A DNA stretch of 64,000 nucleotides from Dacryopinax spathularia (lineage: Eukaryota; Basidiomycota; Dacrymycetes; Dacrymycetales; Dacrymycetaceae), in the NCBI GenBank assembly GCA_037974965.1, contig JBBPFI010000006.1, forward strand, positions 1,798,001-1,862,000, in the 5' to 3' direction. Below, piece by piece: positions 1 through 25,628 of this stretch. The translations under genes and the position numbers were made by a program. The notes beneath the pieces are model-generated. The model was not told the DNA's origin. It made no database searches and saw only the letters and a list, made by a program, of their open reading frames with translations. Numbering within the stretch: the first letter of the stretch is position 1; each line of letters starts with the position of its first letter.

Positions 1-934
1 TTGGTCAATTCCGCTGCTACAGGAAAGGGAAAAGGAGCAAAGGAAAGCTTACAGTCTTGACTACCTTTCCTATTAGGCCGCAGCAACAATCATTAATTCC
101 ATTGTTGAGAATGGAACGATGCGCGTCAACAGGTCGGACAGGCACGGCCGCCGCGCCTAGGACAGCCGGACCCTAGCCGTGCCTGCCGTGCCTGCTGTGC
201 CCTCGAGCCGTCCCAGCAAGGATAACCCTCAATCCAACCCTTTTCAGCACTCTGATATCCCTTTCCTTCCCCTCAGCCCAAGCCTCCTGTACCGCCCCGC
301 CAGCTCCAGCTTTCCCTGGAAGAATCGATAAGCAGGTTGTTGAGAAAAGAGTGTTGCAGCGTCGGACATCCAGACACAAGACCCTAAGATGTAGTTAGCC
401 CGGAGAAAGAGAAAGGTGTGTGCAATCCACGCACCTTAGCTCCTTCCAACCCCCTTTCAACCTCACCAAACCATCACTTCTCCCTTTCCCTTCCTTCTCC
501 CCTTAGCCCAGTCCAATTTGAAGGTCGGATGCTTGAGAACAGGCGGAGTTGCTGTTGTACGAGGCAGTGGTTGCTGGCTGAGACTAGGACTGGACGCGCA
601 ACCAGGGTCTTCAAGGGGAAGGGTCCTCCGTCTCTGAGTCCCTTTCCCTGCATGACGGAGCTGCCCCCTTGGGAGACGGAGGAACACGGACTTAGGGTCC
701 CTCTCACTGTGACGGAGCTGTTTTCCCAGGGGACCGGCCGTTCTCCTCCGTGACGGAGCTGACCCTCCCTCGTGGTGGCCTCGCCTTGCAGGCACGGCTC
801 CCACGTTGTATACGGGAGCAAATGGTTCAATTGATCCCTGCCGGCGCAGCCAGCATTATCAATCCTCTTATCATCCAACGTCCACCTCGACCAATCCCGC
901 CAACAACCCCCACCCACCAAGCCTTGACTGCACC
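1..934. other. left-edge flank with three dyad half-motifs
   Basis: I see no convincing gene here. Three copies of the element TGACGGAGCTG or a close variant lie at about 653, 710 and 751, within 300 bp upstream of the first gene. The same element forms the arrays found in most other intergenic gaps down to 23.2 kb, so this gap probably holds the 5' flank and promoter of the gene at 935. Confidence 0.5.
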
Positions 935-2118
935 ATGTCTCATCGCAGGGTTTACGCGGACGTCCAATTCACCGAGCCCAGTCTGAGGACGAAGGTTCAC
1001 TTGGATTTCCCCAACCCTCCCGATTCCAATGGCCACAAGGAGCTCGATGTCTTGATCCTGCATGCTTGCAAAGAAATGCAAGCCATACTTGACGATGTCA
1101 TCCCCGACCCGTCCCTCCGGCCCAAACTTGACAACAATGTGAAGGCCGGCTTAGGTTGGTCTCGTCGTTCTCTTCGCTTTCCAGCCCACTGACCATGTGT
1201 GGGATCAGGCGGCACCACCGACCTCAACAAACCCCTGCCTCATGGTGCGCAATTCACCCTTACCTTTGGCCTCGGCAACGAGCAGAAGCCTGCCTCGTCA
1301 CCTCTCCGCGATGCAATGCATGCAATGCACAGAAAGCTCGCTGAGGAAACTGCGGCTTGTCACGGGGCTGAGCTGCTCCTCCTCGATAAAACATCGCCAG
1401 GTGAGTGCACTCCCATCTACCTGCAGCCCTTTCGCTGCTAACGGACTATGCAGCGCCGACAACCAAAGCCACCAAGGCCAAGGGGAAGCCCAAGGGAACG
1501 GATGAGATCACTGCACCCGTTCCGGCCCAGCTCAGTGACCCGGCATACGTCTTGAGCGTCTTGGAAGAGAACACGCGGATCATGGCCGAGAACAAGAAGG
1601 TCATGGCGGAGTTCACAATGGTCTTGGCGAAGAGCAATGAGCAGGTTAAAGAGTACCAGGCGCTGTGGGCACAGCACCAGGACCAGCTCTATGCAGTTGG
1701 GATCATGGCACTGGTGCGTTGATCTTTCACCTATGCATGTCACAATGCTGAGCTTTTTGTGCAGCACCGTGATGAGCTCGCCAAGATCCAGCGACGTGAA
1801 ATCATCGGTCGTGCTCGCAAGCTGCTCATCCTTCTCCTTGGTGCCTCCCCCTTTATGTCCTGGAGCGACTTTCAGTCCCAGTACCCTCTTGAGACGGTGC
1901 TTGCGGATCAGCGCTTCAGGACGCACCAGGCCTGGAGGCATCTCCGTCGTCGTGAGCTTGAGTTCCTCTATGGCATGCATGGTGGCGACGAGACCTACAG
2001 GATGGGTAACGTCGCTGCTCACGAGTTTAGCAACCATGTGCTGGTCATAGCTGCTCGTGAGACTGAGGGTGAGCAAGCCACCTTGCTGGGCTCCCTTGTC
2101 GACCTCTTCTCCAACTAG
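935..2118 (+). CDS. hypothetical coiled-coil protein, paralogue of the next gene
   Basis: Four exons fit without a break: 935-1154, 1209-1400, 1454-1713 and 1765-2118, giving 341 residues. The introns are 51-54 nt with donors GTTGGT, GTGAGT and GTGCGT, and all phases agree. I do not recognise a family. The middle (exon 3) is charged and likely forms a coiled coil (EENTRIMAENKKVMAEF). Exon 4 carries a block with IQRREII, a Trp in SWSDF, TVLADQRFRTH and HLRRRELEFL. The same block occurs in the gene at 2549-3410, where the last intron sits at the same place and phase just before it. The two are therefore tandem paralogues that have diverged strongly at the N-terminus. No signal peptide or membrane segment is evident. 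The function is unknown; the conserved C-terminal block suggests a binding or oligomerisation module. Confidence 0.72.
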
Positions 2119-2189
2119 TTGTCTTTACCCCGTCCACGTTACCTGTTGCATGTGATACCGCCAATGATATATCTGTGTCCTGCCAATGA

Positions 2190-2470
2190 CAGAGTGCACC
2201 CAACATGACGGACTGCACTCAGTGTAATGGAGTACACCCCCGTGACGGAGCTGATTCAATGACGGAGTCCACCCGCATGATGGAGCAAACACAGTGTGAC
2301 GGAGCTGATTCAGTCAGGGTCCACTCCCGCATGACGGAGTACACCCAGCATGACGGAGCTGATTCAAAGAGGGTCCACTGCCGCATGACGGAGTACACCC
2401 AGCATGACGGAGCTGATTCAATGAGGGTCCACTCCCGCATGACGGAGTACACCCAGCATGACGGATCTCA
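2190..2470. repeat. minisatellite of TGACGGAG units (54-bp higher-order unit)
   Basis: The element TGACGGAG recurs about every 20-33 bp. From about 2329 it forms a higher-order unit of roughly 54 bp (element + TACACCCAGCA + element + CTGATTCA + AGGGTCCACT...) repeated about 2.5 times. The array fills most of the gap between the two paralogous genes and ends about 80 bp before the second start codon. Confidence 0.8.
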
Positions 2471-2548
2471 GTCCGGATGCAAATCAGCTACCTTACAACG
2501 TCACACAAGCACATCCTCTCCTTCGCATCTCATCTCCCCGACCCCACC

Positions 2549-3410
2549 ATGTCCCCGCCGTCAACAAGCACTCTTCCCTCCCCCTCCTTCTTCCACAGCT
2601 CCCCAAAGATGGCTACGCAAAAAGCTGAGAGCCCCGACGAAGGTGTTGGCGAGGAAAGCAAGAGCCTGGGAGAGCATCCTTCCTCCGGTTAGTCCCCAAC
2701 CATGCGCATACATCAGACTTACTCCGTTCTTTGCATAGACGCTCAGGACAAATGTCAGTGCGCGCATCTGGACATTGCAGCTCTCCAGGCCGATCTCCGC
2801 AACATGGTTATCCGGATCCGCGATCTCGAGCAAGAGGGCAAGACCCAGTGGGAGCGGGGAGACGATGTGCAGAACGAGGTCGAGGCGCTTCAGGAACAAG
2901 TGGATGCTTTGAAACAGCAGAACAGGCTGTTTCAACAGGAGAACGAGCTGCTCTGGCAGAATGTTAAACATTTGCAGGCCAGTACACTCGTGCGTCCCAC
3001 ATACTTCTTCCGCTTGGTCTGTGTTCTTACTGTTCCAGCAGCACAACAACCTCTGCACAAAGCTCCAGTGGAGGGAGATTATCATGGTCGGTCGCAAAGA
3101 GCTACTCAAGCTACTCAATTGCAACAACCTCCTCTGGAGCGAATTCGTCGTCTCCCACCCAATCAGCACCATCCTTGCCGACAAGCGATTCAAGCAGCAT
3201 CCCAAGTGGAAGCATCTAGGCCGTCGAGAGCTCGAGTTTCTTTGCGATAAGCAAGGGGGCAAGAAGATTCGCGAGGCTGGCTTGGGGACCACAGAGGAGG
3301 TGACATTCTCTCCTCTTGGCCTGTTTGAGGCAATCGAGGAGCGGGGCCTTGACCAGCATCAGAGAGCGATGTTGACCAATCTCCTGTCGGTCCATCCCCT
3401 CCATTCGTAG
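2549..3410 (+). CDS. hypothetical coiled-coil protein, paralogue of the preceding gene
   Basis: Three exons, 2549-2687, 2739-2989 and 3042-3410, give 252 residues with consistent phases. An in-frame second ATG lies at 2609. Exon 2 encodes a long heptad-like coiled coil (residues about 50-130, rich in Leu, Glu and Gln, e.g. EVEALQEQVDALKQQNRLF). Exon 3 carries the block LQWREII, LWSEFV, TILADKRFKQHPKW and HLGRRELEFL shared with the gene at 935-2118, preceded by a phase-0 intron at the equivalent position. The last intron's acceptor could also be placed 3 nt upstream, adding one Gln. No catalytic motif is visible. The family and function are unknown. The pair most likely arose by tandem duplication, and the coiled coil suggests a structural or adaptor protein. 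Confidence 0.72.
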
Positions 3411-4273: not shown

Positions 4274-7200
4274 ATGGCTCAGTCGACCTCCAAACTCTGT
4301 GCGCTCTGTCAGCAATCCTTTCCAAACAAACACCAGCTCGACCGACATCGAGAAGCGGCTCACCAGGCTCACATCCAGCTTAAGACGCAAGATGGGCAGG
4401 AGCTTTGTACATCGCGCTCGGCCGATCAAGCTTTCCACTGCCCAGCAACCCATTGCTCCTACAGCAGCAAGTCGCCTTCCGCGTTTCGCAAGCACTGGAA
4501 CAAGAAACACATTCATAACGAAAACGCCCCCTGCAACCCCGTCAATGTCGACAAGGAGTCTTCCGTGCGCCGTCCATCTGCTTCTGATCCGTCCTCCGAC
4601 ACCGTGCTGGCAAAGGACGATGAGGACGAGGCAGATGAGGGTGGTGAGGACGATGAGGAGGAGGCAGATGAGGGTGGTGAGGACGACGGCAAGGAGGCAG
4701 ATGAGGGTGAGGGTGAGGACAAAGAGGACGAGGCAGATGAGGGTGACGAGGGAGAGGATGAGGAGGGAGAGGCAGATGAGGATGACGAGGGTGAGGATGA
4801 GGAGGATCAGATCGAGAGTAAGAACCAGCAGGATAGGTGTCTTTGACCCTAACCTTCATGCGCTGCTGACCATCGTCTCAGATCTCCATTTCCCTCCCTC
4901 TCTGTTGCCCTCTTCTCTCCTGCAAGCGGGTACTATGGTGGACCCGATAGAGACGAGCATCGAAGAGCATCCAGACCTCAGCCTCTACGACCTTGCCCTG
5001 GCCATCCCCTTCCGCATCATTGTGTGCCGTCGCTGCTCCTGCGGTGTACCGGTCGAACACCTAGCCGGGCATTGCCAGACAGGTGTACACCACCGCGCGG
5101 GTGATCCATCCCCTCAGCACCTCACTGCTCTTGCCCAGTCGCTCGCCATCACATCCAGCGACTGCACCATCCCACCCCTCGTCTTCAAGCCGCTGCCTGG
5201 TATCGTCAGCCCACATCAGGGCTGGCGATGCATCCACCATAACGAGGAAGATGCGCCTTATCACTGCCGCCGCCCTTATGCTTCCAAGACCGCCTTCAAG
5301 CAGCACCTCAATCAACATCACCCAGCCAGCGCACATCAAGTTCGTCGGGTGGAGACCAACTCGCAGAGATGCTGGCTCCAGGCGTTCTCCCTCGCCAAGA
5401 ACTTTGCATTGGGCCGCCCCTTCCTCGTCCAACCCATCAGTCTCGGTGCAACCGCATCCTCTGCCAACATCACAGCTTTTCTGGCCGACGCCAACCTCAT
5501 CCGCTCGCAGCGAACCCACTTTGTAGGGAACAGCGTGGAGATGTGCGCCCTGAGCCACTTTAACCTGCGTCGTCCCTGGCTCTCGCTCTTTGAGCAGCTC
5601 GACACGGCTGCAGTCGCTCAGCTGGGATGCTTGCAGTTTGACAACAGCAAGGGAGAAGCTCCCTTGCGCGCAATCAAGGAGACCTGCCAGCACTACATTG
5701 ACAAGATTCACGGCACTACAATTCCCAGCCTCGATGGGGATAGTGTTCGCCGTCGCCTGGCCATCACAAGCGGGCCGTTTACCCTTGGGCCGCCCCATGG
5801 TGCATACCTCCGCGCCCACTCAACCAAACAGCTCGGCACGCTCATCACCCATCTCGTCCTTGCCCTTGTCCGCCTACGTGGGTCGCATGCCCATCTCTAT
5901 CCCCCCTACATTCTTGACCTCTCTCCCAAGCAAGAGGAGTGCGCCCAGCACCTCATCAGCAAGGTCTACAACGAAGACCGCTTTGATGACGAGCTCCATG
6001 CCTTCCTCTTCTCCCTTATCGCCGAGAGGAAGGTCACCAGCCAGGCAATATGGGCGCCACTCGAACGCTTCCTCCTCCTCGCCTGTCTGCAGGACTCGGG
6101 CATCCTCAAGCCGGTCGAGCTCATCAGTCCGATCACCACCCGCTTCCTCCATCTCCTCCGTGATGTGCTCTGTGAGGAGATCAGCATTCGTGCGGGCAAC
6201 GTCTTTGACAGGCAGCTGGCGCTCGTCCATGAGCTCATCCCGCTCTATACCGAGGGAAACGACTATCCGATCGACGCCCTCCGCACCGTCTCCACCCTCG
6301 TCACCGCCATCATCCACAACAAGCCGGCCCTACCTGACACGCACTGGGACGAGGCACACGAGCATGTCATCCACAAGGGCATCCCCGTCAACATTGCCCA
6401 CTTTCGCTCTGGCGCGGTGGCGATTGTCGAGGAGGTGGAGCGGGCTCTGCAGCAGGATGTCTGCCATCTGCCATGGGCTCTGCTTCCCGGAGCTGGATGC
6501 ATATGTCGAACAGGTACTTGACGGCACCTGCTCCATCACCGATTACATTGCCGAGCAAAAGGGCGAGTACTCGTTCCTCACCGACCCAAAAAACATTGAG
6601 CTGGAACAGTTTCGTTCCAACCAGCTCCTCATCGTCGCCATGATCAACCACGATCAAACTGTGCAAGGCGTTCGGCCGCTGCTCACGCGCAGCAACATCC
6701 CTGCGCCCAGCCTTTGCAGTATTCTGGCCAAGCAGTGGCTCGACACGCTCCGGCCTTTCAAACTCCAGCTGCTCGTCGCCCTCCACATCACCGGCGGTGG
6801 GGTATGTCGAGGGACTGAGTCCCTCAACTTTCGCATCAGCAACGATGCCAAGGGATCCCGTTCGCTCGTCTTTATGGACAAGCGGCTCGTGTTTGTACGG
6901 GACTATCACAAGCTGAGCTGGGCCGACTCGCCCAGCAAGACCAGCCTCCGCTGGTTCCCTCGTAGGGTCAGCCGGCTGTTGCTGCTCTACCTCCTCCTCA
7001 TCCATCCCGCCGAGCAGTACCTGCGCGCCAAATTTGGCAGCCAAGAAGCTGCTACCCTCGCTGCAAACTACCTCAGCGCAGCTGGGGACAACCTCATCAC
7101 CTCGGAGGAGCTGTCCGCCTCCCTTCGACGACTCACCCTGAAGCATATGGGTGCAGAGCTTGGCCTCAGGGCGTACTGCCATGTCAACCAGGCTCTGTTG

Positions 7201-9492
7201 ACCCTTGTCACCGACCATCCACTAGGCGAGATTGAGCCTGAGGATGAGCTTGACAGCGGGCTGGATATGCAGAGCGGACACAGCGCCAGAACGGCCCGAC
7301 ACACCTATGACCGGCAATACTCGGTCTATGCGCATACATCTGCAGGCCAGATTGCCATGATGAGGAACGTCAGTCTCAGCTGGCACCACTTTCTTACGCT
7401 CGGACCCGCCGTGAAGACGCTCTCTAGCATGCCATTTGAGGAGACGACCCACCTGCAGTCTGAGGCATTCGTTCCGCCTGCAAAGCGACTACTGCAACCC
7501 AGGTCGAGTCCTGAGACGCCCATCCAAATTTTGCGAAGGGTACGCAAGGATCCCAGGGCCGAGTTCCGGTCAATGGAACAGGCCAAGCTCTGCGACCTCA
7601 TCGTGGCCCAAGAGAGGCACATCCTCGCCATCCTTCCTACCGCAGCCGGCAAGACCTTTGCAACGGCCTTTGCTTGGTGGATCCGACCAGCCTCGGTCAT
7701 CGTTTTCGTATCTCCCCTCATTGCTCTCCGCGATCAGATGTTTGATCGGCTGGCGGAGATGCATGTCCCTGCACATTCCTGGCGGTCGGGCATCTCTATG
7801 GAGCCTGGGTTTGTCCTCGTCAGCGTTGAGGAAGCCAGTGAGCAAGCGTTTCAGCGCTGGCTGCTGTCCAATGCGCAAGCTGGCATCGTGACCCACCTCA
7901 TCTTTGATGAGATTCACCAGGTCCTCACTGCCGAACACTATCGCAGCGCTCTACGCCAGTTTGCCTACCTTTCGACCGTCCCACTTCAGCTCGTCTTCCT
8001 CACAGCAACCCTGCCACTTGCCCATGTCGACCCGCTCTTGCGCATCCTCGAGCTCGATCCCACCGTGGTGGACATCCTTCGTGCGCCTTGCACTACCCGG
8101 ACGGAGCTCCGGCTGGACTTTGTCCACACCAAGTCGGAGCAGGATTCGATTGTGCATGCAACCTCCCTTGTTCGGGCACAGGTGCTCAGCCATCGTGAAC
8201 GAGGCATGGTCATCACCCGGACACGCCAACAAGCTGTTGAGTTGAGCAATGTGCTCGGCACCCATCTCTATGTTGGTGATACCGAACGAGAGGCACGAAG
8301 GGCGACTCCACATGGATGGATCAGAGGGGAAAAGAGCATGTGGCTGGTTGGTACCTCGGCAATTGAGCAAGGCATCGATTACGATGCGGTTCGACACATC
8401 ATCTTTGTGGAAGCACCCCACGGCATCACATCATATGTTCAAGGTGCAGGACGAGGCGGTCGACGCATACCCCGCTGTGACGTCGTTCTCTTCTACTCGT
8501 CCGTGCCAACTCAGGTGCTGCAAGGGGACGACTATGCCGGTCAGAATGCGATGGGAGTGCTCATGTTGACCTCGCTTTGCCGGATGCAGGTCATCTCTGC
8601 GCACTTTGACGAGCATCCGGTCACCTGCACCGAGCTCGGTCTGTCGGAGGGCAACCGCTGCGACCATTGTCAGCGGCCATCCACCAAACGCGTCGCAAGT
8701 CAGGAGTTGGAGACGGAACGACCAACCCAGCGAGCACGGGTGATACCGGTGCCTCTTATTCACCCACCCACACCTCCAGCGCCGGTTCCTCACACGGTCC
8801 CACCTCCACCATCGGCTCCTCGAGTATCTACGACCAGTTCTGGACCATTGATCATCGCCGCCTCGTCCCATCGTCAGGATGTACAGAGTGTGAGGACTGC
8901 CACCCTCGAGCAGCTCTTGCATTGCATGCAAAGGCTCCGACCTCGCGCTCCTCAGCGAGCAGTGTGCTGTCTATGCCAGTTTGCAAGCGCAGAGGCAGTC
9001 TGGCTTAAAGACCGAGGAATGCAGGACGCTCCTTTGGTGCCAGATACCAAGGAGCACAACTTTCCATTCCGATGCAGCATACATCAGGCGCTCATTCATT
9101 CAGGCAACCAGGATGTAACCAGGAGGGCCGCTTATCAACAGTTTGCGTGCATCGACACCAACCGCCAACTCGACATTTGCTATCTCTGTGCCTGGCCCAA
9201 CCAGGCTAGTCACTCTCCGCATCAAAGGCAGCCATGCACCAATACATCGCCCGACTATCCGGACACTGTCAAGATGCTTGCTTTTGTCGTGCACGGCCGC
9301 AAGCCCATCTTCAAGGCCACCCTCGACCGGATGAAAGTATCGCAACAGCGCAGGGAGACGCTTCAAAGCAATCTCACCCAATTCCAAGACTGGCTCTCCA
9401 GACGCGAGCTCGTCTATGGATCTTTCTGGCTCAAGTTCTTCCATGCCCTTGCCATTGAACTGGGCTGGATGGTCAACAGTACTCTGTTGTAA
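4274..9492 (+). CDS. C2H2 zinc-finger / RecQ-like helicase with a tyrosine-recombinase-like middle region
   Basis: The best model is 4274-4817, 4882-6458 and 6514-9492, giving 1,699 residues. Two C2H2-type fingers lie at residues about 8-31 and 54-79, followed by an acidic stretch (about 113-180). A second Cys/His region (about 229-326) resembles that of fungal RecQ-like telomere-linked helicases. Residues 800-980 show a tyrosine-recombinase-like residue order (R806, K840, R926, H963, Y972). The C-terminal half is a superfamily 2 helicase: LPTAAGKT near 1080 (ATP binding), DEIH near 1172, TATLP near 1204 and QGAGRGGR near 1349, then CDHC and further Cys pairs. It is presumably a nuclear 3'-5' DNA helicase. 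The second intron (55 nt, donor GTCTGC) is the weak point: it could instead be a frameshift near 6460-6513, because the skipped reading PELDAYVEQ also looks protein-like. RecQ-type assignment is firm; the recombinase reading is inference. Confidence 0.85.
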
Positions 9493-9589: not shown

Positions 9590-9682
9590 GTTCAGTTCCG
9601 GTGCTGTGATGTAGCTCGTGTCTTGTACAAATAGTAGTTCCGGTGCTGTGATGTAGCTCGTGTCTTGTACGAATAGTAATTT
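9590..9682. repeat. tandem duplication of about 44 bp
   Basis: The segment containing TTCCGGTGCTGTGATGTAGC followed by TCGTGTCTTGTAC occurs twice head-to-tail, with one base difference near the end. It lies about 100 bp after the stop codon of the helicase gene, possibly in its 3' UTR. Confidence 0.8.
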
Positions 9683-9713
9683 GTGAATCCCCTTGCGTGC
9701 CTGCCAAAGTTAC

Positions 9714-10078
9714 CACCTCCGTCGCAGTCAGGGAACACTTCCGTCCCCACTGACCACCTCCGTCGCAGTGAGAGAGAACCTCCGTCCTCAGGGTCCACCT
9801 CCGTTGCAGTCAGGGAGCACTTCCGTCCTTAGGGTCCACCTCCGTCGCAGTGACGGAGCACCTCCGTCCTAGGGACTAGCTCCGTCGCAGTGATGGAGCA
9901 CCTCCGTCCTTAGGGTCCACCTCCGTCGCAGTGACGGAGCACCTCCGTCCTAGGGACTAGCTCCGTCGCAGTGATGGAGCACCTCCGTCCTAGGGACTAG
10001 CTCCGTCGCAGTGATGGAGCACCTCCGTCCCCAGGGTTCAGCTCCGTTGTGCTGGCCAGAATGGCTCCGTTGTCAGGG
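9714..10078. repeat. minisatellite of CTCCGTC / GACGGAG dyads
   Basis: About 15 CTCCGTC half-elements lie in a row. Many are paired as the perfect inverted repeat CTCCGTCGCAGTGACGGAG, alternating with CACCTCCGTCC and TAGGGACTAG spacers. The array ends about 155 bp before the SNF2 start codon. It is the most regular of the arrays in the window. Confidence 0.88.
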
Positions 10079-10233
10079 TCATATAAAGGCCTTTGCGGCA
10101 CTGCTTGGCCTTTTGGTTTTGACTGGAATGCAACACACCTAGACAACAACCTTTTCACTGCCGGTATATCCCTCACACCAACGCAGAACAGCCCTCATCT
10201 CTTTCCTCTCTCACTATTGTGTGCACGTCCGCC

Positions 10234-13200
10234 ATGATCTCCTTTACAGAAGACACCCTCCTCAACTGGGATGCAGCCAGCGTCGCGTCCGACGAGCGGC
10301 TTGATGAAGAGGACGAGTATGGCCCCTTGCCGGTGCCTCCCTTGCCAAAGGTACCGATGGAGTCTCCCGATGAGATGGAACAGGCATGGGATGAGCTGAA
10401 AGGGCGTTTGGCAAGGCTTGGCCGGAAGGGCGAGAGCAAGTGGGTTGACGCAGCACAGGCAGAGATGCTGGTCTTTGAGCAAGAGTTTGGGGTGAAGCTG
10501 GGCAAGGATCACCCTGCCGCGGCAGCTATCAAGGCAAACAATCAGGAGGATGACAACGATGGCGGCAACAGCAACGATGATGATGAGGATGACGACGAGG
10601 ATGAGGATGAGCTTGATGAAGAGTGCGTCCCCAATACTTTACTGTTTCCTTATGCACCAGCGCTCATGGTGGTGCAAGGGGTCAACCGAGAATGAAAAAG
10701 GAGGGGAAGGATATCACCCGTACGTTGCTTACTCTGATCAGTGCATCGTCTCCCTAAAAGCTGAACAGATGAGTGTCGTATGGCAATGGTCAGCCTGGGG
10801 ATTGTAAACAAGGATGACAACTTCCCCGGGATGACCATCCCCCTCTTCCATTACCAAGCGATGGGGGTGGATTTGATGGAGCGCATGGAGAGAGAGTCAT
10901 CGTGCGTACAACTTGGAAGGAGAGCATCAATGCACCGGCTGATTATTATATCTGCAGGCAAAGAGGTGGTATCCTCGCTGACGACATGGGGCTTGGGAAG
11001 ACAGTACAAGTGATCGCACACATCCTCAACACGAAGGCAGTCTCATGCTGCCCCTCTTCTCCCGGTTCCGGGCATACACTCATCGTCATGCCGGCCGGCT
11101 TGATCCCACAATGGGACTCGGAGATCCCGGCAAGGACGGAGCCCGGCGCCCTGACTCACTGGAAATGGTGGCAAGCCAATGGCATGCGTGACCCCAGTGT
11201 ACTCACAGACCACGATGTGATCCTCGCGTCCTACCACGGTGTGTGTGCGGAGAACAGCCCGCTGCTGTCAATACCCTGGCATCGCGTCATCCTCGACAAA
11301 GCGCACAACATCAAGAATCCCAAAGCGGTGCAGACCATCGCCTGTCTAAAGCTCAAGGCACACCATCACTGGTGTTTAACCGGCACACCGATTCAAAACA
11401 AGATCTCCGAGGCTGGGACGCTCATGAGCTTTGTCCAGGTGCCCTTCTACCGCCATCCGATCTTCTTTGAAGAAAAACTCGGATTTCTCGCCAAGGTGTC
11501 GCGCAACCAGGCCAAATCCGGTCTCTATGAAGTTTTCAAGACCTGCATGCTCCGTCGCAATTACAACGACACCTACAACGGTAACCCGATCATCAAGCTC
11601 CCTCAAAGGGATATCGTCCCTCAGATGATGAAACTGTCGCACAAGTGGCAGAAGGCGTACGACAAGATGCAAGACGCCGCTCGTACCCATTTCGAGCAAC
11701 AAAAAAAGATGTGAGTGTGGCTGTCTCCCGATCACCCGGACCAGCGCTGATTGGTCATTAGCAAAAGGAACGCCCAATCCCAGGCAAGAGCGCGTGAGTG
11801 GTGTCGCCTGCATGACACGCTGGGTGGGTGCTGATCGTTAGTATAGTCTGGGCAACGGGTCAACGCATGTGCCGCTTCTTGGCGCATCCGGTGCTTGCAA
11901 AGGCGCCACAGCTCAACCTGACTACAAAGGATCAAGAAGAGTGGGAAGAACAGCTGGCACAATGGACGGATGTGCGGTTGCATTGGTGGTCTCAGCGCAG
12001 ACAGCCGAAACTCGGCTGCAGCAAGTGCAATGCGAAGACCGAGCAGCAGGATATGTACTGCAGTCGGTGCAAACACATATACTGCAAGCGTGCGTGGTCC
12101 AGCAAATGAGCGAGAGGACATGGCTGACGGGTGAGGTAGGCTGTTGGGTGCTAGAAGGCATCCAGGAATTTGGGTGCCCAGTTGCGAAGTGCAAGGACAA
12201 GGGGGGCGGGGTGTATGCTGTCCCACGACGTATCATTCCCACTCCTGAGCTGCCGCGCAAGGGGCAATCCGCATTTGAGCATGTGAAGGCAAAGCCACAT
12301 GTGCGACTGGCATTGGAGCAGAACGTGCTCTGGAGCGACAAGGTACGCATGCATGTGGCGTTGGTCGTTATCGTTTTGCTCATCGTTTCCTAGTTCCTTG
12401 TAAGCCGGAGATTGTACGCTCGTGCTACATTGCTCATTCTCTGCAGCTCATCAAGGAGCTTATCTTGAAGCACATGCAGAAGGACAACGAGCGGATCAAA
12501 GCTCTGAAAGCACAGGGCAAGCCACTCGACAGCACAACCATTCCATCCAAGTTTCTCGTCTTCTCGCAGTGGACCGCGGTGCTTGACCTGGCATTTGTAG
12601 CATTCTCCACAGTCAAAGAGTTCAATTTGGCTCGGTAAGTGTCTCAACGTGGATGTCGCCCAGCATGCTGTTGATAATGGATTAGATACGATGGAACCAT
12701 GAGTATGGCGCAGCGTTCCAAGGCCTTGGAAGACTTTAAAACTTGGGACGGTGGGCCTAACATCTTGCTGATTTCGATCGGTGCGGGCGGCACTGGGTAT
12801 GACCTCTCTCTCTCTTTCTCTCTCTATCTCTCTCACTGACGCTTGCTCAGACTGAATCTTATGCGTGCCAACATCATCTTCACCATTGACCCACACTGGA
12901 ATGTTGCCAAAGAGATGCAAGGTGCGTCTTTGTTCAGGGGTTACAGAGCAAAGCACTTGACATGACGCAGCCTACAATCGTGCGTATCGCGTGGGCCAGG
13001 CCAAACGTGAGTATGGGAGAAGTGTTGTCGCATGCCTCTGAATTTGCCTGTGCAGGCGTGATCATCTATCCGCTCATCTACAGCAACACCATCGAGGAGC
13101 GCATTGTCAACAGGCAGCAAGACAAGCGTAAGATGATAATGCAAGCCTTTGGGAGGGGACACGTGGAGAGCGAATCCCGACTTGGCGCGCTCAAACAGCG

Positions 13201-13444: not shown

Positions 13445-15360
13445 CTATGTTGTTGATGATGTACGCGCGACCCAAGTCACGCGCTTGATCTTCTCAAGTT
13501 TGCACTTGTAAAACTTGCTGATGATGTACTCCAGCTTGTCCTTTGCTGTCCGTAGCTGGGTTACACGCGTGTCGTGGTGAAGGGGTAGCTCGCCTGCCCC
13601 ACCATTGCTTTTCCAAGCCTGGGATATGGCCTCGCGGGGCCAGTCCGGAGCTTCCACCTCCATCACCAGCAGCCAAAGCGAGAGACGATGGCGAGTAAAG
13701 GACCCGCTGCCATCGTCCTCGTCTTGTTGTGGCACATACGCGAGCGGATTGAGGAGCATCCGCCGTAGGGCAGCCGCGTCCTCTTTTCGGATTTTGGCGT
13801 CTTTCTTGGGCTTGTCAGGCAGGTTGGAAGCATACGCCAAGAAGATGCTGTACCACGCAGTGCGTTCTGAATTGGTAGCATATAGGCCAATCGCGCACTC
13901 TTCCGTCATGCACTTCTCGACCCGCTCAAAGTCACCGAGGTCGAAGAGCTTGCCGGCGGTGAGGCTTGGGGTCGCTGTCCAGACCCAGTGTTTCCACCAG
14001 TTTGGCTGAATGCTGAGAGAGGGACTCAACACAGGAGGGGCTCGGGCGTGGTAGCGTACTCACATTTGCATGCCCGCTCTTAAAGGAATGTAGTACCACT
14101 CCCCCAGGTTCTCGCGGGTCTTGTCCGAACCGGTCGCCAAGTCATCATGGACACCTCTTGGGTCCTTGGCGATCCGCGCCAATGTAGCCTCATTCAAGCG
14201 AACATAGAACCAATACTTGAGTCCTTTGAGCTGAGCGATGTAGGTGTACCGTCCGCCAGCGTCGTGATGGACATTGGTGAAGACAAACTCCATTGAGATG
14301 AGCGCCCATGCAGCTTCTCGCAGTTCGGTTCGCTCGACGAGCTCGTCGGATTGGCCGGAGGTGGCGATGGAATACTCGACCGTTTGATTGTAGAATGCCC
14401 TGTGTATGCGTTGAGCACAGGGAAGGAAGGCTGACGGAGCACGCACCTCAAATATGGCGGCCAGCCCCAAGCCGGATAAGCACACTCTAGCAGATTCAAG
14501 TAGCTCTTCCTCGCCTTTGTCTTCGTCTTTGCCTTCTGGAACCGGTCGGCGTGTTGTTTGAAGAATGCTTGCATTGTGATAAACTGGTGGATTAAGCCTC
14601 CATCCTCGGTCGCGCCGGTCTCGCGCAAGTACATCTTCTTCAAGTCTAGGACAGTCGGTGAGCGAGGAAGATGATGTGTTTTAGTATACAACGCACCTAT
14701 GAACTGGTACGTGTGATCTCTATCGGGCCTTGCCATGCCTTTGCGCAGCACTGTCTCGTAGCTAAAGGGGGAGTCTTCCCAAGACTCGCCTCCGGTGATG
14801 CAGACGACATGCTGGGAGCGCAGGCGATTGGCAAGTTCACTCGGTGAGATGTCGAGCGACTGGTCGGGCCGGACTTGATAGTGCAGGAATTGGGGGTCCT
14901 TGTGTGCCGGCTGCGATATGTGGAAGAGGGAATCGACCTTGTTTGCCCAGTACCTCTGCAACCTTGATCAGCGAGATCGGGCATGTTTGGTGAACATGAC
15001 CGGGCGTACCATGGCCTCTGTGCTCTTCATCTCCTGGTCGGGCGGATAGATTGTCCAGTCAATCTCGTGGGGCGAAACGTCCAGTTGGACAGGTGCCTGT
15101 GGCTCAGTAGGGTGGCTGGGACGTCGAAACTGATGAAGCTGGGTTGCTGGGATTGAGCCAGGAAGAGGTCGAGGAGCGTCTTTGTCCCCGAGCAGCACCT
15201 TGGTCGTCCAGTGCGCCATTTCACAGCGCATTCGAGGGTTGAGCGGTTCCACACAGGCGCTCTCATCATGGCCTGCTTGCGCGCAGTTGAAGCAATAGAT
15301 TTCTTTAACGGTGAGCGACGACAAGCTGCTCGTGAGCTGACTGGTCTCGGTGGCAGACAT
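13445..15360 (-). CDS. CCHC zinc-knuckle protein with a JmjC-like 2-oxoglutarate oxygenase domain
   Basis: The minus-strand exons 15360-15010, 14955-14697, 14645-14447, 14399-14064 and 14012-13445 give 570 residues with all phases matching. The N-terminus has a CX2CX4HX4C zinc knuckle (C23, C26, H31, C36). The middle has a cupin/JmjC signature: HHD (314-316) in NVHHDAGGRYTY, then QLKGLKYWFYV, and a distal His (H390) in QPNWWKHWVWTATPSLTAG. The 76-residue spacing and the Gly-x-Lys-x-Trp strand fit basidiomycete JmjC-like proteins with an HxD...H iron site. It probably acts on chromatin or RNA-bound proteins, but the substrate is unknown. It converges tail-to-tail with the SNF2 gene (94 bp apart) and diverges from the gene at 15867 across a CTCCGTC array. 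Confidence 0.75.
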
Positions 15361-15424: not shown

Positions 15425-15745
15425 ACGGGGCTCGGTGTCACTGTGACGGAGCTGCTTAGGGTCCGTCCCCTGTGACGGAGCTACGACAACGGGATCAAGA
15501 GGGGACGGAGCTCACGAGCTAACTGCGACGGAGCTGCTTAGGGTCCGTCCCCTGTGACGGAGCTGCTCAGGGTCCGTCCCACTATGACGGAGCAACGACA
15601 ACGGGATCAAGAGGGGACGGAGCTCACGAGCTAACTGCGACGGAGCTGCTTAGGGTCCGTCCCCTGTGACGGAGCTGCTTTTGGGTCCGTCCCACTGTGA
15701 CGGAGCAACGACGACGGGATCAAAGGATTAAAAGTGCGACGGAGC
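15425..15745. repeat. GACGGAGCT minisatellite in a divergent promoter region
   Basis: At least nine GACGGAGC elements occur, organised in a higher-order unit of about 115 bp (ACGACAACGGGATCAAG, GGGGACGGAGCTCACGAGC, TGCGACGGAGCTGCTTAGGG, TCCGTCCCCTGTGACGGAG) repeated about 2.5 times. It lies between the divergent genes at 15360 (minus) and 15867 (plus) and includes fully palindromic GACGGAGCTC contexts. Confidence 0.85.
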
Positions 15746-15866
15746 TATCCAAAACTTCTCGTGCGTCTCCTCCCTCTCTCAACAACCACCACCACAACCC
15801 AAAAAGGTATGTCGAGGCGGGAACCTGACAATGCACACTTCTGACAGTGCTTTAAAAGGTACATCG

Positions 15867-16762
15867 ATGGTGCGCAAGAAGAAGGAAATGAAGAACAAGT
15901 CGACTGCTCAGGTGGCCTCCTCGCTGGAAAAGAGGGCAGCTGAGCAGTCAGAAGATGGTGAAGAAAGGGAGCACCAAACCAAGCGAAACTTACCGCCCGA
16001 CTGGCTGCGAACTGTGCGATCTCGGAAGAAGAACATTGATCGATCGTTTGGTTTCCACGAGGCCGATTACTGGATCAGGCGAGAGGAGTGGAAATTGGCG
16101 TATGACCGAGCTTCGGATGAGATCAAGGCGAAACTGGACCCATATCACATTGTGAGTTGTGGCACTCTAAACACCTGCGGCCGTGCTGATCCATCCCATT
16201 CCAGTGCACCGAATGTTTAGTTGCGGTCAAGGTTAACAAGGACCTGACCTTTTCATTCCCCGACACACCGTGCAAGATCACTCGGGAGGTTGAACGGACT
16301 GAGCGGGCCGACAGCAAAGGCGCAAAGGGCGAGAAGCCAAAGACCAGTCGAGCCCAGGTGGCCTGTACGGAATGTAGGCGCAAACACGTTGCCTGCAGTG
16401 CTCAAAGTGTGTCCGACCCTGCTGGGGGAAGAAAAGTGGCATTACTGACGATGGATATAACAGTTACGCTGCGAGCATTTCGTGGGTTCGAACCGCCTAT
16501 GCAGGTCCTAGCAGGTTGGGACCGGCACATACCACACGTTAAATACATATGGCGGGAAATCCAGCGGCGCCGAAAGGCTGGAGAGCCGCTCGATTCGGAG
16601 GATGAGGACAGGGTCGATGATATCGTGGTGTGGTCGGACGACAAGGCCAAGAAGTATCGCTTGCGCAGGAGGCCACCTCTGGAGCTGGGCGAAGAATTGG
16701 CCCAATTGGCCAGCATGAGGGCCACTGTTGATTCGGTGCTAGCGCGAGCGACAGTACATTAA
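15867..16762 (+). CDS. hypothetical Cys-motif (zinc-binding) protein
   Basis: Exons 15867-16151, 16205-16406 and 16464-16762 give 261 residues. I chose the ATG at 15867 because the upstream ATGs at 15809 and 15831 fall inside a likely 5' UTR intron (GTATGT...CTGACAG). The N-terminus is basic (MVRKKKEMKNK). The centre has two Cys clusters, CTECLV and CTECRRKHVAC, a pattern like the paired Cys motifs of many basidiomycete proteins of unknown function in which the second half resembles a partial Zn2Cys6 motif. The C-terminus is charged with a likely helical region. The second intron (57 nt) is a multiple of three, so its retention would also stay open. It lies 76 bp upstream of the next gene on the same strand, with no repeat array between. 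DNA binding is possible but unproven. Confidence 0.6.
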
Positions 16763-16838: not shown

Positions 16839-19082
16839 ATGAACGCTCCGCAAGATCCCAATGACCAGTCCGACCTTCCCCCTTACAACGCCCCGCAAGA
16901 TCCCAATGGCCAGTCCCGCTACTGGTTCAGGCACTTGTGCAGTTGGGCTGCACGACCCGACTGGTGGACGTGGAGACTAGCAATGCAAGATGAGCAGTTC
17001 AGGGACAACATCGATGTGCGTGATACTGGCCCCCGTTTGGTGGCAACATTACTGACCCGCGGCACAGTGGGCCGTTCGCGACCTGATCACGCACGGCTGT
17101 ACCTTTGACGTGCTGGCGATTCCTCAAGCGATGTACACCGAATTGAGACCGAGGACGATCAAGATGTTGAAGGTGTTTTACGACGGCCTCAAAGAGGAGG
17201 CGGAGACGGCCACACCGGACAGTGTCAGGGAAGGGGGGGAAATCGCCGATCAGGACGCGTCTGAGAAGGCAGATGATGGTGCAGGGGGTGACGAAGAGGG
17301 AGCAGAGAAGGAAGACGATGGCGCCGGGCCCGGGGCACAGGAGTGTTTGCACCCTCACTGCGTTGCTCTGCGGGCAGAGATCGAGGTGAGCATCATTCAT
17401 CAATGGGCGCCCAACAACAAGGGTTGCTGATATTATAATCAGGGCGTCGAGAAGGCCAATCAGGCTCTAGCAGGTGAAAGGGCAAAGTTGGACGAGGCCC
17501 TCCAACGGCATCGGGCAGAGCTGGGCACGCAGCGCAAGCTTGTGCAGGACCGACTGGACACGCTCGTTCAGCAACTCAGCATCTGGGAGGGCCCATCCGT
17601 TCCTTCTCTCGACACCCCGTGCAGCAACGCAGAGATTGGAGCTTCTCTCGAGACGGATGACACGAGAGAATGGGGCAAAATCAAAGAGAAGATCGACAAC
17701 GTGCAGATCCGGGTGCAGCGCCTTGTTGAACTGAACAAGGAGGTGTTGGATAACGCGACCGAGCAATGGGAGAAGCAGAAGCAAAAGGCGGAGCGTGACC
17801 AGGCGGATCTAGAAAAGGTAGACACGCGCAAGACCAATGAATAACGGTTGCTGATATTATGAACAGAGGGTTGAAGAGCAGAATGAGCAGTTGGCGAATA
17901 ACCGCCAGCGGAGAGAGCTTGTGCAGGAGAGCCTGGACAAGATGCTTCGGTGGCTCCAGCCCATGGCGCCAGCATCCCGTCCGTTTCGCAAGACATTGGG
18001 CAGTGACGAAGAGGTCGGATCAAGCTCGGGTTCGTCTCGCGACACCTCGGTCAGTGACGACGAGGTCGGAGCAGACTTGGGTTCTGTCGACACCGATGAC
18101 ACGAAATGGGACAAAATGGAAAAGGTCATCGAGCGAACGCGATCCCATCTGATGGCCCGGTTTCAAGATGACGACGAGGCGTGGGAGGACTGGAAAGAGC
18201 AGGTGAACTCCCTCAGGGAGGCAAAGAAGGCATTCGAGAAGGACATCACGGATCTGCGCACCCAGCTCAGTGAGCTCCGTAAGCAGTCGAGTCAGTCTCA
18301 GTCTCGTAAGGTGATCACATACTCGAAGACGGCGCGCACGCTTCCTTCGTTCTGGTCTGGGGAGAGGGCCGCCTTGTCTTGGATGCCTGCATCAAGGTGT
18401 CCCATACCAGATCCTTGGGTCCAGCATGTGAGAGTGTATGAGCTGGGTTTGAACACGGCTGGTGAGTGGGCGGCACGTTTGCCATCATGGTCCATCGTGG
18501 TGACTGGTGTCAGCCGAACAGGAGAGAGTCTTTCCTCAAGTGCGGGCTGGTGCGAGCAAGGCACTCAAGGCGGCAAGGGACGAGATCGCGGCGCTCTGGA
18601 AGCTGCTGGACAACATGGTCACGAGCGATGAATGCATTCAGCAAGAGCTCCGCTATTGGGGACAGCAAAAGAGGGGTCAGTATTACGGTGAGCCAGACCG
18701 GGAAACGCGGGAGTTTGCGGAGAGGGTTTGGGGCGCTAAATGGGGCACCGGGCTGTTCGCAGCTAACATTCGTGTCTGTGCGTGCCTGGGTTACCTCTCA
18801 GATCACCAAAGTCGCTGACTGTGTGGTTCAGTTACCTTGCTTGACTTGTTCTCAAAGAAACGGACGGACACCACGCCCTGGTGTCATCAAGCGTTCGCCA
18901 AGACGTGTGGGCTGGGAAGCAGGATACGGAAGGCGGTGCAGCCCCTCTACGAGAGCCTAGTGTTCATGGCTTGGGGTGAGGGTAGGTTGGGGGACATTAC
19001 GGAATATAACAGGATCCAATTCCCAGGGGCCGACGGCCACACCAAGACTGCAGTGAGGTTTGATCAGAGGTTGCCCGTGTAA
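16839..19082 (+). CDS. hypothetical coiled-coil protein with a duplicated exon
   Basis: Exons 16839-17015, 17068-17385, 17443-17817, 17867-18461, 18514-18771 and 18832-19082 give 657 residues with consistent phases. Exon 2 ends in an Asp/Glu/Ala/Gly-rich segment. Exons 3 and 4 each begin with a predicted coiled coil and share a scheme: (G/R)VE..NQ.LA, R(K/E)LVQ..LD, then T(D)DT(R/K)W.K(I/M)..KI and a second charged helix. The introns before exon 3 and exon 4 also share GGTTGCTGATATTAT next to their acceptors, which marks a tandem exon duplication. The last exons encode a more globular region (ELRYWGQQKRG, KWGTGLFAANI, VFMAWGEGRLGD). No known domain is recognised. The short spacing after the upstream gene suggests close co-location, not an operon. 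A structural role is possible. Confidence 0.65.
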
Positions 19083-19154: not shown

Positions 19155-19325
19155 GTCCGTCGCGGTGGGATAGCTCCGTCGCAGTGGGACAGCTCCGTCG
19201 CGGTGAGACTGCTCCGTCGCGGTCGGACAGCTCCGTCGCGGTGAGACTGCTCCGTCGCGGTGAGACAGCTCCCGCAGAGGTTGATTCCGTCGCGGTGCAT
19301 TTACTATCTCCGTCACGGTATCAAA
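19155..19325. repeat. CTCCGTCGCGGTGAG minisatellite
   Basis: About nine CTCCGTCGC(A/G)GTG elements lie in tandem with spacing of about 17-20 bp and spacers such as ACAG and ACTG. The array ends about 90 bp before the start codon at 19414. It is the same motif as in the other intergenic arrays. Confidence 0.85.
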
Positions 19326-21301: not shown

Positions 21302-22825
21302 ATGCCCCCACACCGAGTCTTGCTGATTGACGAACTGCTCAGGGCTGTCTTTGTTCAGGTCAACTGGGGCGAGCGCCGCGATGCTTATGCCAACTTTGTG
21401 CTCGTTTGCTCGCATTGGTATGGCATCGTGCGTGCACTCCAATTCGAGTGGACCGGAGTGTGGCGTCCAGAGAGGTTGATGGGCCTGCTTAGAAGGCACG
21501 ACCAATCGGTGAGTAGTAGGACAGGCCCGTCTGTTGAGAACCTAGCTGACGTCTGTACATAGCAAAACAACATCCTGTTGCCCACTGACGGGTTTCGATT
21601 TGTGGTGCAGCGGCTACGCGGCGTCTCGGTAGCGTGCACCGAAGTGCCCGCTCTCCAGATTTTGGCAATGTGTGCGCTCGTGCCGCAGGGTTTGGCCCGG
21701 CTACGCCATTTGCAAGTGCGGTGCACGAGCAATATGATGCTGGCGGCGATCATGGCCTGGCTCCCACGACTCCCTCAGCTGGAGACACTTGACGTGGATT
21801 TGCGGTGCCCAATCCTCGGCTTCTCTCTCGACAGTCCACTCCCCGTGCACCAACTCCTGCTCCACGCCAGCTCCCGTGAGCTCTGGGCCGACGCTCTGCC
21901 CGCTCTGCAGACCATCATGCCTGCGATTCGTTCTATCGACCTCTGCGATCCCCCATTGGACCTTCTCGATGCACATCTCGGGCGAGACAGATGGAGGAAT
22001 GCACGCGTCTGCTTCTTTTCGACTGGACCGACGCTTGTGGCGGGACGGTGGTCCGTCCTGGAGCAGCTCGAAATTGGTCCTTGCAATCGCCAGGCGGCCC
22101 TGGTCCTGCTCGCCTGCTTCCAATCGAGTCCGGTCCTCCGTTCGCTCACCGTTCTCATCCGGCCTATGGTTTCGGAGGAACCCGATGTTGGCGGACCGTG
22201 GCGACCGATGTTCGAGGCGATCAGCCATCACGGGGGCCTGGAAGAGCTGCATGTCGGAGTGATAATTGAAGCGGTGGAGAGCGATAGCTGCCTGATTGGC
22301 GACGATCTTCTCCCATTGGCTGCCTGCCGTGCCATACGGTCCTTTGCCTTTGGCTTTGCATTCGAGGCGAGCCAATCAGGAACGATGACGATGAGTTTGG
22401 CGGCTTGGGATGCCCTTTTCACAGCTTGGCCTGACCTGGGCGAGCTGATTATCTGTTGGCCCAATCGATCAAGATCGATCGGTCCCATGACCGTGCTTGG
22501 GACGACTCTGGAGGTCATCCCCCTCCTGAAGGAGCGGTGTTTCCATCTGGCCCGGCTAGAGCTGGTCGTCTGTGACCATGCACTGCTCTGGACGGACATC
22601 GAGCCGGATCCTCGCTCTGTGCTGGTGCGTTTGCGCACCGATCCAGCGATCAATCATGCACACACCCGCACCATCGTCAAAACAATATGGCCAAACGGAA
22701 CGGTGTATGCCGATCCGCTGGTCGAGCGGAGAGTGTCCCAGGTACAGAACGTGCTCCAGCAAAAGTTCTCAGATGGGCACAGGCGATTAATCGCAGCGTT
22801 GCCCAACCCCTATCATACCCTGTAA
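21302..22825 (+). CDS. F-box-like / leucine-rich protein
   Basis: Exons 21302-21508 and 21563-22825 give 489 residues. The N-terminus has an F-box-like signature (VLLIDELLRAVFVQV, FVLVCSHWYGIVRALQF..W), in the arrangement typical of the very large F-box families of basidiomycetes. The rest has irregular leucine-rich repeats (LARLRHLQV, LPQLETLDVDLR, LEQLEIG, LEELHVGV, LARLELVV). Such proteins usually act as substrate receptors of SCF ubiquitin ligases through Skp1; here that is inferred from the family pattern. The single 54-nt intron falls just after the F-box, a usual place. The target is unknown. It lies 229 bp after the preceding gene with no minisatellite between. Confidence 0.75.
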
Positions 22826-22924
22826 CAGCCTGAACTGTATGTGTAGCATAAGACAATGAATGCTTTGCCAGCTGTTCCGTGATCTGCGAAAACAACTGGG
22901 TCACGACAAGTGAGCTTGAGCGCC

Positions 22925-23190
22925 AAGTGAGAGGCAGTTCCGATGGGCTACTCCGTCGCGGTGAGAGGAAGCTCCGTCACAGGGACGGCTTACTCCGTCG
23001 CGGTGAGAGGCAGCTCCGTCGCAGGGACGGCTTACTCCGTCGCGGTGAGAGGGAGCTCCGTCGCGGTGAGAGGGAGCTCCGTCGCGGTGAGAGGGAGCTC
23101 CGTCGCAGGGACGGCTTACTCCGTCGCGGTGAGAGGGAGCTCCGTCACAGGGACGGCTTGCTCCGTCGCAGTGAGCATTACAGGGCCTCT
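22925..23190. repeat. CTCCGTCGCGGTGAGAGG minisatellite
   Basis: About 11 elements of CTCCGTCGC(G/A)GTGAGAGG(G/C)AG, alternating with CTCCGTC(A/G)CAGGGACGGCTTA, form a regular array. Unlike the other arrays it lies between two 3' ends (the genes ending at 22825 plus and 23321 minus), so a purely promoter role for the motif is unlikely. The rest of the gap (22826-22924 and 23191-23320) shows nothing else. Confidence 0.85.
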
Positions 23191-23320
23191 AAGGCCGGGT
23201 TGTACATTACAAAAGGCGTATGCTAGTGGAAATACAGTGGCATGTACAGTACACAGTACATTACGGCTGCCTGATTAGGTGGATATCGCGTTGTGCGCAC
23301 CCGTTTTCCTCCCGCAGGTT

Positions 23321-24109
23321 CTACTCGTCGTTGTTTTCGTCTTCGTCCGCCTTCATCGCTTCATCCTGGATGTCCTCTTCAGGTGATCCACCGTCACCGC
23401 CCGTCTCATCGTCCATCTCCTTGATCTCCTCGTCCATCGCCTCGTCCTGGCCCTGGTCCGCGCTCATCATCCCTGCCGGGAGGAACAGGTCGTCGTTTTC
23501 GTCTTCGTCGTCCTTCCTCGCTTCATCCTGGATGTCCTCTTCAGGTGATCCACCGTCACCGCCCGTGTCATCGTCCATCTCCTCGATCTCATCGTCCATC
23601 GCCTCGTCCTGGCCCTGGTCCGCGCTCGTCATCCCTGCCGGGAGGAACAAGTCCAACAGCTCGTCTTCCTGAGGTGGGTTGACTGGGTCGCCCGCCTCCT
23701 CGTCCTTGTCCTCGCTCCTCATCCCTGCCGGGAGGAACAAGTCCGACAGCTCGGGGTCGGCAGACGTTTGCCCTGCGTCGTCTTCATGTGCTGGAGCATG
23801 TTCGTTGTCCGCTCCATGCACCTCATCCTCCTCATCCTGCCCAGGGGCTTGCTCCTTGTTTGGATCGGCGACGGGCGGTGTCGGGTCCTGGGAGGTGAAG
23901 TCGGGGAGCGTCGGACAGTCGATGTAGCCGACGCTCCCTGCTTCCATCGGGACGTTAGGGGGGGCGATCCGGGCTCTCTTGCGCCGATCATCGAGGCTGT
24001 CGCTGTCGCATCGGGGCCGGCGAAGATGGGGTCGGTTGGGGGACGTTCTACGTGGGCGAGGCCCGGAAGGAGGGAGGGGGGATGAGGAGCGCCGGTTGGC
24101 CGCATCCAT
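23321..24109 (-). CDS. acidic repeat protein with a DLFLPAGM motif
   Basis: The frame is open on the minus strand from 24436 to 23321. I prefer the ATG at 24109 (262 residues) because the stretch above it contains CTCCGTC elements on the plus strand and abuts the composition boundary at about 24,435. Starting at 24436 would give 371 residues. The protein is low in complexity: an Arg/Pro/Ser-rich N-terminus with a basic cluster (DDRRKRARI, a possible nuclear signal), then a highly acidic C-terminus. There the motif DLFLPAGM appears three times, and a unit of about 54 residues (DQGQDEAMD.EI.EMDD, TGGDGGSPEEDIQDEA) is duplicated. Short hydrophobic motifs in acidic disorder often recruit a partner. 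The partner and the family are unknown. Confidence 0.55.
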   Translation of the reverse strand: MDAANRRSSSPLPPSGPRPRRTSPNRPHLRRPRCDSDSLDDRRKRARIAPPNVPMEAGSVGYIDCPTLPDFTSQDPTPPVADPNKEQAPGQDEEDEVHGADNEHAPAHEDDAGQTSADPELSDLFLPAGMRSEDKDEEAGDPVNPPQEDELLDLFLPAGMTSADQGQDEAMDDEIEEMDDDTGGDGGSPEEDIQDEARKDDEDENDDLFLPAGMMSADQGQDEAMDEEIKEMDDETGGDGGSPEEDIQDEAMKADEDENNDE

Positions 24110-24436
24110 GTCGACGTCTTCATTGGATGAGGGGGACGTCTGGCGGGGGGTCGGCGGCGCGATAGCTGGCTGAGAGGAGGAGATCTTGGAGCGGAGTGCA
24201 AGAATGCGGGCGCGCTGAGAGAGGGATGAGCGATTGTTCACCCCGAGCGGTTGATGTTGGAGAAAAGGAAGCGCACCGGATCGAAAGGACGGAACACAAT
24301 GGGGTGGTCGTCCTCCGGAAGGTCCATTGTGCAAAGTGGCAACTCCGTCGTGGACTGCCAAAAACCTGGCTCCGTCCAGCGCGACGCGACGCGTTCTCCA
24401 GGACCCTTGCACAGCCGCTAAAAATGCGAAATACAA

Positions 24437-25620: not shown

Positions 25621-25628
25621 TTTCACCT

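Follow-up and report, generated by a model that had tools for sequence, protein, structure and literature searches.

The gene block that occupies the first 24 kb of a 64,000-nucleotide stretch of Dacryopinax spathularia DNA (C6:1798001-1862000, forward strand; this whole stretch is referred to as the window) raises the question of whether it is an ordinary part of a chromosome end or a mobile element. The genome consists of 29.2 Mb in 24 contigs with TTAGGG ends, and all genome-wide counts given below refer to this one assembly of one strain. The telomere repeats terminate contig C6 at 1925452, so that the block is located approximately 103-128 kb from the chromosome end. The block represents a single copy of an element, designated A, that is repeated in the genome, and it is larger than first seen. 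It may be an element of a new form that bears a telomere-linked helicase (TLH), and possibly founds a new class. Element A is probably a giant one-ended mobile element of chromosome ends, which replaces these ends by attachment driven by its recombinase.

The suggestion of the first-pass annotation that the block is mobile is borne out by near-identical copies that are present at different sites at several chromosome ends. The helicase protein of A is encoded in full length by three copies with 98-99% identity (one on C14 and two on C13) and by one copy with 65% identity (C13). Relatives with 24-32% identity are present at six places (two on C18, one on C6, one on C2 and two on C12), and fragments at C10 (a short piece with 76% identity) and C7 (a piece with 25% identity). 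Further pieces of A are detected by DNA comparison at C11, C2, C3, C16, C10 and C13L. The genome-wide lists of DNA matches are incomplete, because most of the known C14 copy is absent from them. When 6 kb to the left of the window is added for the boundary comparison, six copies of A start with CCTAACCGCCGCACC at the base that corresponds to C6:1797939, and the flank is different in each of them. The left edge of the block, which had been placed at ~600, is therefore corrected to C6:1797939, where the C6 copy begins with CCTAACCGCCGCACCAGGGACC. The C6 and outer C13 copies are both located on the same repeated unit, F (97% identity over 4.5 kb), at points 2.75 kb apart. At C16:820116-827347, an element with a reverse transcriptase is located inside a truncated copy of A with four A bases on both sides, and the contig ends within A. 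Just proximal to the 65% relative on C13, an open frame similar to Plavaka-type transposases is present at C13:1033081-1034496.

The terminus of A starts with CCTAACC, and a strict pattern of this terminus is detected at 10 places in the genome. A looser pattern, which also accepts a related terminus, B (CCTAACCCTGGCACCCC), is detected at 32 places, and its reversed control at one. All 24 A/B termini with two or fewer mismatches point outward; they are spread over 17 arms, and their distance to the end of the contig is 0.8-128 kb. Five of the eight places with three mismatches are of the A/B type and three (C1:3052638, C4:1353810 and C11:130321) are not, giving 29 A/B termini. Bases 15-40 of the terminus form a near-palindrome (CAGGGACCAATG-GG-CATTAGTCCCTG in A), in which 11 of the 12 positions pair in seven of the ten A copies; eight paired positions are retained in 12 of the 19 B termini. 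In one pair, both partners differ between A and B (G-C versus C-G, as read by eye). Telomere-like runs are located directly outside the terminus in only two of the 29 cases (C2L and C5L), and the flanks are mostly non-telomeric. The reading of B as the terminus of a giant element with a RecQ of its own is weakened, because the part common to C18 and C2 is only ~620 bp and that common to C2 and C13 only ~1.2 kb, beyond which the sequences diverge.

The distal end of A, in contrast to this fixed terminus, varies among the copies. In window-equivalent positions, the last base is 4101 at C11 and 19447 at C13, each followed by telomere repeats and the contig end, and 23410 at C14, up to which the C6 and C14 copies are homologous. 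No second copy of window 23411-24398 is found among the matches listed, which omit most of the C14 copy. The B terminus directly adjoins the distal ends at 13148 (C13) and 1383 (C2), and other cut points are found at C3, C13L and C16. At the right end of C13, a chain is formed in the order of A, B terminus, 65% relative of A, F, A and telomere. At C14:17416-17541, ~20 internal telomere repeats link the cut A to other subtelomeric sequence, and this site resembles a former chromosome end to which more DNA was added later. At C9:1354982-1355068, an F-terminus stub of ~13 bp is followed by two tandem 31-bp B-terminus stubs and then by a longer B. Unit F itself points outward in all 17 matches of at least 500 bp at 95% identity or more (the place of the query included), and its copies are cut at many points, some of them being capped with telomere repeats. 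The exceptions to the outward orientation of F are two short inverted pieces at the right end of C3 (C3:2612433-2613973) and a 67% match that faces inward on C16. The copies of another unit, G, are 99-100% identical, and their matches stop at window 31874 (C9, 152 bp from the contig end) and 33935 (C12).

For ten of the 29 A/B termini, the target is also available in uninterrupted form in another copy. Seven of these ten joints share the first three or four bases of the element with the target, CCT in six cases and TCTA in one. The CCT overlap is present at three A joints (C6, with the intact target on C1; C13, with that on C6; and C2, with that on C14) and at three B-on-A joints (C2, C13 right and C13 left), and the frequency of CCT in the targets is ~0.02. 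None of the four distal target remainders tested is located downstream as a near-identical continuation. Three of them give no match: a 1.4-kb part of F sought in the C6 window and, in the outer end of C2, 3 kb of F2 as well as the part of A after 1383. The fourth, the part of A after 13148 sought in the C13 chain, gives only three 68-71% matches, which are located within the 65% relative.

The lead protein of A is, as judged from sequence alignment and a predicted fold, a fusion of a RecQ helicase and a tyrosine recombinase. The catalytic residues R-K-R-H-Y, in this order, are each found in 96-98 of the 104 family members aligned, where all other rows but one or two have gaps, and all five are present at each of six further loci of the same genome. 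The recombinase domain shows a low ratio of nonsynonymous to synonymous substitution rates (dN/dS). Its predicted fold is nearest to those of XerH, Cre and XerA according to VIA-align, which was run on the top chains of Foldseek itself and on which the fold argument rests. The first model, built from five sequences (predicted local distance difference test score 61), was superseded by one from a 62-sequence alignment. The OrsD domain scores 27.6 bits in the window copy against a cut-off of 26.6, and slightly below it, 25.5, in the C14 copy. The C2H2/RecQ-like protein with a recombinase-like middle region that the first-pass annotation read is confirmed, as an OrsD/C2H2-RecQ protein, by Pfam, alignment and fold comparison, and the alternative of a telomere-linked helicase region in that annotation also proves apt, because the protein belongs to the fungal TLH family (OrsD/DUF3505 and RecQ core), one member of which, P0077, is named tlh1. 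The closest named relative is from Calocera cornea (40% identity). DUF3435 (PF11917) is not detected in the lead protein P0001 at E<=0.1 or in its recombinase domain at E<=10, and GCR1_C is not listed among the Pfam domains of either; only one terminus of the element is known. A recombinase domain in TLHs is not described in the literature searched by title and start of abstract, with subscription papers and preprints outside the scope. A second, distant gene for a tyrosine recombinase-RecQ protein, with all five catalytic residues, is located at C6:1880926-1883205, 42 kb from the C6 telomere.

These results are probably best explained by the following mechanism. The centromere-side terminus, with its CCTAACC start and palindrome, would be the sole attachment site, and the other side of the element would be whatever extends to the telomere. 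The recombinase, aided by the helicase, would link this terminus to a CCT triplet in the subtelomere of another chromosome by a single exchange or copying event, such that the element, together with its telomere, takes the place of the distal part of this chromosome. The helicase may serve to open the duplex or to power the copying. Later erosion would trim the free end, followed by healing with telomerase or attachment of a new element, and repeated rounds of trimming and attachment would convert the ends into chains of same-facing, truncated elements. Only the outward orientation would be retained, because an inward joint would yield a dicentric or acentric chromosome, which would be lost. 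The precise inner end, the CCT identity, the outward orientation and the absence of the distal targets are in line with one site-specific exchange, or one copying event.

Several observations weigh against this mechanism. Three of the ten testable joints (an A-on-A joint at C3 and the two 31-bp tandem stubs at C9R) have no overlap, and the TCTA overlap belongs to a single B joint, whose target is an F stub of only ~13 bp. Units F, G, H and I likewise start at a fixed proximal point and are cut distally, and part of the pattern may therefore stem from a general host process. F joints share CAT, the first bases of F, with the target at all three testable sites (on A at C10, on B at C13L and on F at C6), and F has no recognised recombinase, five F open reading frames (ORFs) giving no Pfam family. 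G shares 1 bp at its single testable joint (C9), and H and I share 0-1 bp with F. Foldseek alone gives no significant match against PDB (best E 0.09), and the VIA Z score never exceeds 8.0. The recombinase gene of the window itself is damaged, with a frameshift near 6463 relative to three other copies, and this copy lacks one catalytic arginine, the second R being replaced by Cys. Neither a true right end, a reciprocal product nor an extrachromosomal form is seen in this single assembly, and neither a second end nor the target-site duplication that the first-pass annotation proposed to look for is found in it.

Because other units, F above all, act alike without a recognised recombinase, a serious rival, even if an unlikely one, is that broken ends are passively joined to a linear element via microhomology end joining or replication primed by microhomology, with the element contributing nothing but a defined free end. 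The shortness of the overlaps, the A/B joints that have none and the three bases shared by F at every testable joint are consistent with such capture. However, the length and bases of microhomology should vary, and the overlap is exactly CCT in six of the seven overlapping A/B joints; conservation of the recombinase site and the low dN/dS of its domain also argue against it. The likelihoods expressed here for the various readings are not meant to add up to certainty, because passive capture can combine with the others.

Less likely again is ordinary subtelomeric duplication, in which homologous or break-induced replication copies the end of one chromosome onto another and takes the helicase gene along as a passive rider. 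This process predicts common flanks and varied inner breakpoints, but the copies of A share the same inner base and differ in their flanks, and simple segmental duplication is disfavoured as the main process by this fixed terminus with differing adjoining sequence. The subtelomeric location and co-orientation of the copies are those expected from end-to-end copying, and repeats with helicase and DUF3505 domains are co-oriented at all 24 subtelomeres of Colletotrichum higginsianum, according to the available part of the source (PMC5576322). Some identical joints also look duplicated, as three H-on-F joints are located at an identical base of F (C12 and C3).

Integration of a circle at CCT anywhere in the subtelomere, in the manner of Starships or Cryptons, with both target halves kept and the distal part lost later by end breakage, is improbable. 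The tyrosine recombinase in the lead protein, the 3-bp target identity, the giant size and the cargo would all suit it, but the orientation should then be random, and all 24 termini are outward. No copy with a right end and a target remainder is found, and DUF3435 is not detected. Of the Starship analogy drawn by the first-pass annotation, only the giant size together with a tyrosine recombinase stands; no second end or target-site duplication is found, and the tested target remainders are not located downstream. A telomere-attaching retroelement of the Terminon, MoTeR or FoTeR kind, with the 3' end of its RNA at the fixed terminus and distal cuts due to incomplete reverse transcription, is highly improbable despite a topology in common with A (proximal end fixed, distal end truncated, copies in chains) and the telomere-like CTAACC at the terminus, because A contains none of the 57 RVT_1 matches of the genome (one is located in the insertion that interrupts the truncated A at C16), no Rfam match, hammerheads included, is obtained at the gathering score in the window and the three other sequences searched, the flanks are mostly non-telomeric, and the genes of A are located on both strands with one inferred intron.

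The known systems closest to A are compared here from the parts of the cited sources that are available. Reports of RecQ-like helicase genes at the ends of fungal chromosomes go back to 1998 or earlier (reference 30 of PMC7473861), and the role of these genes is unsettled according to the available parts of PMC7473861 and PMC12857005. TLH repeats include the DHX and DTX families of Colletotrichum, TLHcr of Fusarium and those of Agaricus burnettii, with Magnaporthe and Ustilago also named (PMC5576322, PMC12857005, PMC7473861). TLH regions adjoin telomeric retrotransposons in Fusarium oxysporum (PMC12857005), and no domain beyond the helicase core is reported for the Agaricus TLH in the available part of PMC7473861. 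Like A, TLH repeats encode the same protein family and are co-oriented at subtelomeres (PMC5576322), and are present as full and truncated copies (PMC12857005, PMC7473861). Unlike these descriptions, which as far as available give helicase domains and, in PMC5576322, DUF3505, A shows a recombinase site that is conserved, a terminus precise to the base, targets at CCT and copies stacked end on end. The Terminons of bdelloid rotifers, which are giant, multi-gene, arranged head-to-tail at chromosome ends and truncated by telomere repeats, are closest to A in layout in the part of the source available, but move via reverse transcription: they have their own reverse transcriptase, hammerhead motifs and attachment to telomeric repeats, none of which is found for A (PMC6431247). 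MoTeR and FoTeR are non-long terminal repeat retrotransposons in telomere repeats, whereas A has no reverse transcriptase and mostly non-telomeric flanks. Starships are giant and have a tyrosine recombinase like A, but A gives no DUF3435 match, has a single known end and shows no signs of cut-and-paste movement (Starship features as in the available part of PMC12134995); Starships have also been reported from a basidiomycete, Tremella fuciformis (PMC13066641). The closest enzyme-target pairing in the sources as available is that of telomere-targeting nimaviruses of crustaceans, whose tyrosine recombinase, typically with a C2H2 zinc domain, is tied to telomere repeats; these are viral, have telomere repeats on both flanks and are not mentioned with a RecQ fusion in the available part of PMC10871703. 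Cryptons share a eukaryotic tyrosine recombinase with A, and their short terminal direct repeats are thought to be recombination substrates, but they are two-ended, with repeats of 4-6 bp and, in the fungal type, GCR1_C, and a helicase is unmentioned in the part of PMC3212892 available.

The features of the window are summarized in Table 1. The SNF2 ATPase named by the first-pass annotation is recovered with Pfam; the JmjC-like identity proposed for the minus-strand protein at 13445-14967 is not, as its three ORF pieces give no Pfam family at E<=1. The diverged relatives of A at C13, C10 and C2 are collinear with the C6 copy for SNF2 and the following genes, and SNF2-like frames (judged by eye) are located beside a RecQ at C18L and C2R. 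The dyad minisatellite noticed in the gaps is indeed sparse beyond 24,435: 70 of the 80 seven-base half-sites in the window are located in 1-24435, mainly in intergenic clusters, and 10 are scattered beyond. The exact pattern, CTCCGTCGCNGTGA, gives 49 matches in the genome, all of them inside copies of A (18 on C6, 16 on C13, 14 on C14 and one on C11), and its reversed control none. The sharp change of composition at ~24,435 is also real, the G+C fraction decreasing from 0.616 (23-24 kb) to 0.468 (24-25 kb). In the outer part of C6, a repeated stretch of unknown kind with a similar open frame is present at window 45102-46855 and 60649-62403 and at C6:1917401-1918228, its copies showing 66-70% DNA identity to each other. 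Frames with reverse transcriptase on C19, C23 and C24 contain in-frame TGA, and these contigs therefore look mitochondrial.

Table 1. Positions of features in the window
Feature	Position	Strand	Basis or remark
Element A, C6 copy	1..24435	+	Telomere side to the right; left terminus 62 bp before window base 1
OrsD/tyrosine recombinase/RecQ fusion gene	4274..9492	+	Exon 1 ~4274-4846, remainder from ~4953; intron inferred from the frame change between ~4846 and ~4953
OrsD (PF12013) zinc-binding domain	5007..5321	+	Pfam E 4.4e-6
Tyrosine recombinase catalytic domain (predicted)	6472..7374	+	Alignment, predicted fold
Catalytic codons, C6 copy	R 6808-6810, K 6910-6912, Cys for second R 7177-7179, H 7279-7281, Y 7306-7308		
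RecQ-family helicase core (DEAD and Helicase_C)	7579..8463	+	Pfam; family profile best E 8e-64 against RecQ-family chains
Minisatellite arrays	9594..10030	.	Dyad type (CTCCGTC...GACGGAG) from 9712; distinct 42-bp repeat at 9594-9678
SNF2 ATPase N-terminal lobe	10818..11714	+	Pfam E 6.6e-49; ORF 10123-10695 directly upstream
Protein without Pfam match	13445..14967	-	Part 14053-14502 ~70% DNA identity in diverged copies
Minisatellite array	15441..15723	.	Same half-sites as 9712 array
Cargo proteins of unknown kind	15732..16762	+	ORFs 15732-16220, 16190-16762
Coiled-coil-like protein	17855..18631	+	Weak matches only
Minisatellite array	19156..19272	.	Same half-sites as 9712 array
Cargo protein, 420-amino-acid open frame	21563..22825	+	0 Pfam matches
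Minisatellite array	22949..23175	.	Same half-sites as 9712 array
Acidic repeat protein	23321..24439	-	Open frame
AT-rich stretch separating A from unit G	24436..25232	none	Composition
Unit G, own left terminus CCTAATAATATAG	25233..33935	+	Also C12:1108081, C9:6791, different flanks; right limit given as the point where the C12 match stops

A broader proposal, which comes near to an even chance and is made tentatively, is that TLHs are tyrosine recombinase-RecQ fusions that drive an unrecognised class of one-ended giant elements, which swap or rebuild whole chromosome ends at CCT triplets, have a single attachment site, use the telomere as their other end, and constitute a DNA-based counterpart of the telomere elements of Drosophila and rotifers that acts alongside telomerase across Dikarya. 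If TLHs are indeed recombinase-helicase fusions with a defined attachment site, their function can be tested directly, and there is an active driver behind the instability of fungal subtelomeres. Spread of mobile DNA by one-ended movement, in which a chromosome end is replaced, would be novel.

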